A DNA stretch of 64,000 nt from Candidatus Loosdrechtia aerotolerans (GTDB lineage: Bacteria; Planctomycetota; Brocadiia; Brocadiales; Brocadiaceae). The notes under the pieces were generated by a model. That model was not told where the DNA came from. It did no database searches and saw only the letters and a list, made by a program, of their open reading frames with translations. Every line of letters starts with the position of its first letter. Position 1 is the first letter of the stretch. The stretch covers positions 1-64,000 of the forward strand of contig SOER01000005.1 in the NCBI GenBank assembly GCA_021646405.1. Direction: 5' to 3'. The position numbers were made by a program, and so were the translations under genes. Positions 1 to 37,680 of this stretch are shown in pieces.

Positions 1-126
1 AATTGTGAAAGGCTACAGTTGGATTTACTCTTCTACTTAGTGAGTCTGTTTGAAGAGCCGTGTGCGGTAATTCTGCATGCACGGTTCTGTGAGGGGCGGC
101 GGGAGTAATCCTGCCGTCTACTCGAC
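1..126 (+). mobile_element. 3' end of a group II intron (domains V and VI)
   Basis: The sequence shows the two terminal RNA domains of a bacterial group II intron. Domain V is a hairpin at about 55-87: AGCCGTG (56-62) pairs with CACGGTT (80-86), including the G-U wobble of the AGC catalytic triad, with a distal stem TGCGG/CTGCA. Domain VI is a perfect 8-bp stem, CGGCGGGA (97-104) with TCCTGCCG (109-116), closed by a GTAA tetraloop. A120 is the likely bulged branch-point adenosine, and the intron probably ends at C126. The rest of the ribozyme and any reverse transcriptase ORF lie left of the window. The downstream exon is non-coding and runs into the radical SAM gene. Confidence 0.85.
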
Positions 127-36358: not shown

Positions 36359-37369
36359 TTATGCATGTTCTTTCACTGTGTCAAGCAACTGGTCAATAAT
36401 ATGTAAGGATGTTTTTCCCTCAGCCTCGGCATGGAAATTCGTAATGATACGGTGCTGTAAAATATGCTTTGCAATTGCCCTGACATCATTGCACGTAACG
36501 GCATACTGCCCGTTCAGTACAGCACGTGCCTTGCCTCCGAGGATGAGGTATTGAGATGCGCGCGGACCTGCTCCCCAGTTCACCCATTTTTTAACAAAAT
36601 CAGGCGCCGCCGGATTTGCCGGTCTCGATGCCCGTACCAATCTGATAGCATATTTAATGACATAATCAGCGACAGGAACCCTCGCAATAAGCTCCTGAAG
36701 ATGTAGGATTTCTTCGGGACTAAATATCTTCTCTACCTTTGGTTTATAAGCGGATGTCGTTGTTCTGACAATTTCGACTTCCTCGTCTTCAGACGGGTAT
36801 TCAACGTTGATTTGAAACATAAACCGGTCCAGTTGCGCTTCAGGCAGAGGATATGTACCTTCCTGTTCGATAGGATTCTGTGTGGCAAAAACGATAAAAG
36901 GCAGGGCGAGATTATACGTAGTTCCACCAGCCGTGACCTTGTATTCCTGCATTGCCTGGAGTAATGCCGCTTGTGTCTTCGGCGGTGTGCGGTTAATTTC
37001 ATCCGCAAGCAGAATATTTGAAAAGATAGGACCTTGAATAAACTTGAAAAACCTTTTTCCCGTTGCATGGTCCTGTTCCAGGATCTCGGTTCCCGTAATA
37101 TCGGCAGGCATGAGATCGGGAGTGAACTGGATACGGTTAAATTTCAGATTCAGGACATCTGCAAGGGTACTGACAAGGAGCGTCTTTGCAAGTCCCGGTA
37201 CCCCAACAAAAAGACAATGGCCTTTACAAAACAGGGCTATGAGGAGATTTTGAATCACCTCATCCTGTCCTATGATAACCTTTGCTACTTGTTTTTTTAT
37301 TTCTGATTGACCTTTCACTATCCTATCGATAGTTTCAAGGTCTGTTTTTTCCATTTCAGTTACAGTCAT
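36359..37369 (-). CDS. MoxR family AAA+ ATPase
   Basis: About 336 residues. Walker A reads GVPGLAKT (MoxR-type, Ala in place of the usual Gly), Walker B is ILLADEINRTPPKTQAALL, and sensor 1 lies in FVFATQNPIEQEGTYPLPEAQLDRF, shown here only in part. MoxR ATPases act as chaperones that activate partner complexes, usually with DUF58 and vWA proteins. The ORF can open at ATG 37384, but ATG 37369 (MTVTEMEK) is more likely because the earlier ATG touches the T-run of a strong leader hairpin. Immediately downstream lies DUF58. Confidence 0.93.
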   Translation of the reverse strand: MTVTEMEKTDLETIDRIVKGQSEIKKQVAKVIIGQDEVIQNLLIALFCKGHCLFVGVPGLAKTLLVSTLADVLNLKFNRIQFTPDLMPADITGTEILEQDHATGKRFFKFIQGPIFSNILLADEINRTPPKTQAALLQAMQEYKVTAGGTTYNLALPFIVFATQNPIEQEGTYPLPEAQLDRFMFQINVEYPSEDEEVEIVRTTTSAYKPKVEKIFSPEEILHLQELIARVPVADYVIKYAIRLVRASRPANPAAPDFVKKWVNWGAGPRASQYLILGGKARAVLNGQYAVTCNDVRAIAKHILQHRIITNFHAEAEGKTSLHIIDQLLDTVKEHA

Positions 37370-37384
37370 AAGTTTTTCACCCAT

Positions 37385-37468
37385 AAAAAAGTGCGTTGGT
37401 GTCGAAGCTGCTCAGATAAGCCCAAAACTGAGCATGTTAAAACCAAGGCTTTTCCCCGGCACCAACGC
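37385..37468 (-). promoter_or_regulatory. Structured leader with terminator-like end before moxR
   Basis: On the minus strand GCGTTGGTGCCG (37468-37457) pairs with CGACACCAACGC (37404-37393), 11 of 12 pairs, and TTTTTT follows at 37390-37385. Inside, TGCTCAG pairs with CTGAGCA, and the 12-nt loop TTTTGGGCTTAT contains GGCTT, complementary to AAGCC near the left arm, so a pseudoknot is possible. It could be an attenuator or riboswitch-like leader, the terminator of the upstream synthetase gene, or a palindromic repeat. It matches no class I know. Confidence 0.55.
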
Positions 37469-37530
37469 TTTCGTTTTGTATGGAAATGATACCAAAAACC
37501 AGACTGTTTGTGAATGAAAAATTTATAAAT

Positions 37531-37680
37531 ACCCTGTATATCCGACATTCAAGAGGTCCAATTTTTAAGTTATTGCTATTTAATGGCTTAATTAACTGAG
37601 CAATAAAATATCAGTTTCATAAGCTTTTGAAATTACAAGAGATATAAAAACCTCTTGAATGTCGGGTATATGTTCCAGGG
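37531..37680. repeat. MITE-like element with long inverted ends
   Basis: TATCCGACATTCAAGAGGT (37539-37557) and ACCTCTTGAATGTCGGGTA (37650-37668) are near-exact complements. Outside them, ACCCTG at 37531 and CAGGGT at 37676-37681 extend the match after a small gap. The interior has a further TTATTGCT/AGCAATAA pair. A single end also occurs at 28737-28752. No coding potential. Confidence 0.7.

Follow-up and report, generated by a model that had tools for sequence, protein, structure and literature searches.

ZTP and fluoride riboswitches are pseudoknotted RNAs in which the loop of a hairpin pairs back to another strand. In Vibrio, Vsr217 originates from the 5′ untranslated region of malK and reportedly acts both in cis and in trans, with fbp as a demonstrated target (PMC8265627). 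For anammox bacteria, whose contribution to oceanic nitrogen loss is estimated at about one half (PMC7438415), no described small RNA was found among the results examined from the open-access literature. Likewise, queries on anammox small and non-coding RNAs, structured motifs, Kuenenia start sites and moxR riboswitches led, among the results examined, to no description of the RNA presented here.

The RNA is encoded on the minus strand of the window, by which we mean the whole analyzed stretch of 64,000 nucleotides of Candidatus Loosdrechtia aerotolerans (contig SOER01000005.1), and lies upstream of moxR and DUF58 genes. Positions 37471..37385 hold the whole structure. Its closing stem is formed by two arms of 12 nt (37457..37468 and 37393..37404), which are 92% complementary and contain one mismatch. 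It encloses an inner hairpin of 7 bp (37428..37434 with 37409..37415), in whose loop the sequence GGGCUU (37418..37423) can pair with an upstream AAGCCU strand (37446..37451), the latter residing within the nearly invariant GGGGAAAAGCCUUG. Judged by this complementarity, a pseudoknot is possible. A U6 tract (37385..37390) follows, which together with the closing stem resembles a terminator. A first-pass annotation of the window had named the stem with its mismatch, the inner hairpin, the AAGCC/GGCTT complementarity and the T6 run, each of which the minus strand does contain. The feature itself, however, reaches further upstream than described there, to a sigma-70-like promoter sequence (37486..37514, minus strand) composed of a -35 hexamer TTCACA (37514-37509), a spacer of 17 nt ending with TGG and a -10 hexamer TATCAT (37491-37486). 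From the positions of the -10 box and the U-tract, the putative RNA gene would comprise approximately 95 nt, from a presumed start near 37480 to the U-tract (37385..37480). The moxR gene (AAA_3; Pfam PF07726, E 6.4e-61) extends over 36359..37369 on the minus strand. Its start had been placed directly behind the T6 run, at ATG 37384. Since the moxR sequences of relatives mostly align from residue 5-6 of this open reading frame, i.e. from the next ATG, position 37369 is the more likely start and the former one probably lies 15 nt too far upstream. By eye, the start region exhibits no clear Shine-Dalgarno sequence.

Promoter-like sequences were also compared among the loci. TTCACA occurs within about 110 nt upstream of the RNA in all 29 distinct loci of the window's family, its identity being given by construction because the loci were aligned on this hexamer. 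Located 17 nt past it, a -10 hexamer ends 5-6 nt before the stem in 26 of the 29 loci and 15 nt before it in the window. The -10 hexamer has a mean identity of 83%, the spacer one of 81% and the 20 nt preceding TTCACA one of 77%, compared with 38-44% further upstream. Three loci of other families (L039, L040 and L043) contain a near-consensus TTGACA-17-TA(G/C/A)AAT, which was matched by none of 100 shuffles; the promoter-like TTGATTGACAAA(T/C)A is common to the truA copy L040 and both cobS copies (L039, L043). No convincing promoter was found at L033, L034, L037 and L045, where 37-93 of 100 shuffles scored as well, and the scores of other single sequences were often equalled by shuffles. A promoter pattern scan of the window yielded one site against 1.3 expected in shuffles and was thus not above chance. 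At the other end of the RNA, 37 of 44 copies (29/30 in the window's family, 8/14 in the others) contain, past the stem region, eight consecutive bases with at least six T; the searched stretch was wide, and in L044 the run is not adjacent to the stem. The copies with a weak U-tract (at most five T in eight: L026, L033, L036, L039, L042, L043 and L045) mostly precede truA or cobS. Directly upstream of the promoter-like sequence of the window, an inverted-repeat element of about 135 bp was observed (37536-37671), whose 21-nt ends are 95% complementary. Five further long copies (88-96%) exist in the same genome, and a total of 57 genome matches, which include self and inverted self-matches, mostly concern the ends. 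The element looks like a MITE.

The 91-nt RNA folds at -31.3 kcal/mol, compared to -21.8 ± 3.2 kcal/mol for shuffled sequences (z -2.97), and none of 200 shuffles was as good; for a stretch of 136 nt, z was -2.59 and three of 200 shuffles were as good. In alignment A1, comprising 43 copies after omission of one identical locus, GGGGAAAAGCCUUG, AGUUUUGGGCUUAUCUG and CUUC are fully or almost fully conserved, and the loops barely vary. Both helices covary, as both bases change in 12 of 25 pairs with 91% of the cells being paired, whereas only 30-44% were paired when the structure was slid along the alignment. Covariation was as high in none of 500 shuffles, and the count of further pair types was reached by three of 500; since the aligned rows are related, these counts are not probabilities. 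In a model-fitted alignment, which leans to the structure, both partners change in 13 of 19 pairs. Much of the variation of the inner hairpin goes back to a single split between families. The compensating changes in stems of relatives, which the first-pass annotation had suggested as a check, were found in the closing stem as well as in the inner hairpin. The columns of the candidate pseudoknot (23-28 with 51-56) are 99.6% paired and too invariant for a covariation test. Only three changes occur in them, two of which retain a G-U pair while one (L033) breaks the end pair. As an isolated duplex, AAGCCU/GGGCUU (37451-37446 with 37423-37418) has a predicted energy of -8.2 kcal/mol.

Rfam 15 applied at gathering cut-offs to the window and eight further loci (nine sources) gave neither a match at the RNA nor a riboswitch family. 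A permissive scan of the window and the L044 and L034 stretches disclosed nothing near a cut-off; its only riboswitch in the window was the Na+ family, with 12 bits in a match 16 bases long that lies downstream of the stems. A known Rfam class was rejected at the thresholds used; the first-pass annotation had not recognized the class, and indeed no Rfam family fits. At the edge of the window (53-126), Rfam matched the catalytic domain of a group II intron with 48.7 bits.

By DNA search, 44 of 59 genomes including that of the window gave a match at E below 1e-5 which spans the fold. A covariance model (R1) yielded a strong match (E 4.2e-15 or better) in 47 of 62 genomes of the order, one per genome, namely in 30/33 genomes of the window's family (f1), 15/17 of f4, 2/2 of f5, 0/9 of f2 and 0/1 of f3. 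Two weak matches (E about 0.04), a second one in G010 and one in G018, were left uncounted. Within a sample of 392 genomes of the phylum, 35 reached E 0.1 or better, 31 of them inside the order; the four outside (E 0.006 to 0.06) were treated as noise. This search used strict filters that could miss diverged relatives. When genome records were searched for the core pattern, 37 of 40 loci fitted the model, and the titles of these 37 records read Ca. Brocadia, Jettenia, Kuenenia, Scalindua, Anammoxibacter or unnamed Planctomycetes. Core-pattern loci in Rhodocytophaga, Aestuariibacter and Methylophilaceae gave no model match and were taken as chance. Within the collections searched, the RNA was found only in anammox lineages.

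Its distribution inside the order is not uniform. The RNA occurs in three of the four families with detected hydrazine synthase. The nine f2 genomes gave no convincing R1 match with strict or laxer filters (best E 0.10), and eight truA loci from seven f2 genomes and one f3 genome contained no RNA (best 15.7 bits with filters off). As hydrazine synthase alpha was detected in six of the nine f2 genomes, anammox as such does not require the RNA, and the idea of an anammox-defining RNA was rejected. Either the RNA arose or became recognizable within the group, or it was lost in f2. Among the non-carriers of the carrying families, G018, G021 and G025 also lack a close moxR orthologue (only matches of 28-57%) and G050 and G056 lack a truA match; in these five genomes missing contigs are a likely cause of the absence.

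The genomic context was determined for 44 of the 47 carriers (G415, G416 and G417 were left out), with a Pfam run on one moxR, two truA and one cobS product. The next gene is co-directional at all 44 loci (open reading frames of at least 100 aa; moxR by tblastn), while the gene before the RNA varies in identity and direction. In the window's family, moxR is next at all 30 loci even though the upstream neighbor changes, and DUF58 follows at 29 of them (it was not found in L032). The expected position before moxR was thus confirmed for this family, but it does not hold for f4 and f5, where the next gene is truA at 12 and cobS at two of the 14 loci and this moxR was unmatched in the fetched stretch. 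The 37 named records revealed a similar picture, with moxR at 22, truA at 12, cobS at two and a contig end at one, these three genes being the only ones sought. At both f5 loci (L044, L045), the RNA resides between truA and a gene which we take, reading its sequence by eye, to be asd-like. In all eight checked genomes carrying the RNA before moxR or cobS, truA lies elsewhere; as each of these genomes has one strong model match, truA there has no copy of the RNA. In the f3 genome G034, the site directly upstream of truA, where f5 carries the RNA, is occupied by another stem structure of very high stability (z -5.2; L137, 1370-1510), which does not match R1.

What survives of the first reading, which had likened the element to an attenuator or riboswitch in the leader of moxR, is a conserved structured RNA before this gene; a moxR-specific switch is not supported, truA or cobS being next at the other loci. 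Since the downstream gene changes and the RNA is kept, the RNA itself appears to be the conserved product. We lean, with modest confidence, towards an independent small-RNA gene from a family not yet described, which would act in trans and whose terminator would leak into the next gene, and we favour this over a ligand-controlled attenuator. Transcription would begin at the closing stem or immediately upstream of it and in most cases end at the U-tract, releasing an RNA of approximately 90 nt in a compact pseudoknotted fold. This RNA may work in trans via a protein or another partner recognizing the fixed loops. The gene behind it, in the window moxR, would be expressed by read-through of the terminator, so that the RNA doubles as a leader. 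That the next gene is always co-directional and that moxR begins so soon after the RNA suggests that this gene uses the promoter of the RNA in this way. In 20 of 30 loci of the window's family, the aligned moxR start lies at most 25 nt from the end of the match; transcription of moxR there probably passes through the RNA or begins inside it.

Several findings argue for the small-RNA gene: a single strong copy in 47 of 62 genomes, covarying helices, a near-invariant core, and conservation that is independent of the neighbors, as three different downstream genes and changing upstream neighbors were found. Furthermore, a promoter-like sequence is common to one truA and both cobS copies, truA has no RNA of its own in the eight checked genomes, the closing stem is predicted with a probability of at least 0.95 in all 44 copies, and Vsr217 provides a precedent for a small RNA that stems from a 5′ leader and acts in trans (PMC8265627). 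On the other hand, the co-direction at 44/44 loci and the attachment of moxR at 30/30 favour a role in cis, the U-tract is weak in 7/44 copies, and a conserved complementary target was not found. The target search was carried out with the complements of two 14-nt core segments in 10 genomes, allowing one mismatch. It gave 30 and 26 non-self sites, compared to 18 and 4 with reversed patterns, a control that does not keep dinucleotides. Of the 56 sites, 40 were examined with their flanks (14/30 for one segment, 26/26 for the other); 36 lie in predicted open reading frames (16 sense, 20 antisense) and four are intergenic. Among these 40 sites, no conserved antisense target shared among the 10 genomes was found for the two core segments. 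Sense sites within 30 nt of a predicted start occur in L225, where the site lies 16 nt after the start, and in L230; L230 and L237 concern the same gene and the same segment in two genomes. In G036, two gene copies that are 96% identical and start with MPRIARIIVPNLPYHITQRGN (L239, L240) carry, on the strand opposite to the gene, a sequence exactly complementary to the hairpin loop. By eye the gene looks like a transposase, and the complement is likely due to chance.

The main rival, a cis-acting attenuator or riboswitch, is possible but in our view doubtful. Here, binding of a ligand or protein to the pseudoknotted domain would set how often the closing stem terminates transcription, and different lineages would have placed different genes under its control. 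The order of promoter-like sequence, structured RNA, U-tract and co-directional gene suits such an element, as does the short distance to moxR at two thirds of the loci of the window's family, and near-invariant loops combined with covarying helices resemble an aptamer. A conserved structured domain does lie upstream of a co-directional gene. However, a function or metabolite shared among the moxR (30), truA (12) and cobS (2) loci was not found, and we know of no metabolite common to these three genes. A single copy per genome with a changing gene is also unusual for a switch, and seven of 44 copies have a weak U-tract. An alternative structure that could serve switching is offered by the local hairpin CCGGGG/CCUUGG (columns 15-20 with 26-31). 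It competes both with the top of the closing stem and with the pseudoknot, and is favoured by RNAalifold, whose model does not include pseudoknots. Yet column 16 covaries with column 71 of the closing stem (C-G to U-A in seven copies), while its hairpin partner, column 30, is constant. This speaks for the long closing stem and would still allow the pseudoknot. In predictions that leave out pseudoknots, the competition of this hairpin with the closing stem is limited to the top of the latter. Removal of the 3′ arm of this stem costs from 8.6 (window) to 21.8 kcal/mol. An intrinsic switch was not supported by structure prediction, as in 44/44 copies the closing stem is stable without a ligand in a calculation that leaves out pseudoknots.

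That the element is just a strong terminator or RNA-stability element, protecting the downstream mRNA or setting its level without a separate trans or ligand function, seems improbable to us. A stable closing stem with a U-tract, always situated before a co-directional gene, is what such an element would look like, but such a role does not require that GGGGAAAAGCCUUG be nearly fixed and the hairpin loop be fixed in three families. A simple scan for intrinsic terminators found none at the RNA, which says little as its pattern admits only loops of 3-8 nt. Least credible of all is the view that the element is mobile, repeated or a short coding gene, because, even though the locus differs between families and a repeat-like element adjoins at 37536-37671, there is one strong copy per carrying genome, which excludes the scattered repeat named earlier as the refuting alternative and led us to reject a repeat or mobile element, no viral contig contained the core pattern, no single frame of the 84-nt core is free of stops in all 44 copies (best 38/44), the stem changes compensate each other, and the L032 copy exhibits a length change of 1 nt.

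Tentatively, and with doubt slightly prevailing, the RNA may be regarded as the first RNA class dedicated to anammox bacteria, i.e. a pseudoknotted functional product, protein-bound or ligand-binding, which is kept as a single copy through at least three families in front of an exchangeable gene. Its near-invariant core and single copy in three families of the order make it a tangible candidate regulator, and it can serve directly as a probe for RNA-seq data, for instance those of Kuenenia (PMC7438415). It also calls for caution, since a position before moxR does not mean that the RNA regulates moxR.

In comparison with the systems introduced above, the anammox RNA shares with ZTP and fluoride riboswitches a compact fold, fixed loops, a possible pairing between loop and strand and a U-tract near the start codon, but in none of the nine sources does it reach the gathering score of an Rfam riboswitch. 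Like Vsr217, it is conserved and situated in a gene's leader region; Vsr217, however, is described with malK and has fbp as its target, whereas the gene downstream of the anammox RNA changes and no target was found for it (PMC8265627). It also resembles the orphan structured RNA candidates found by comparative genomics, which are likewise conserved and covarying without an assigned function (PMC2864571, PMC8040213); the RNA described here differs from them in being confined, in the collections searched, to anammox lineages.
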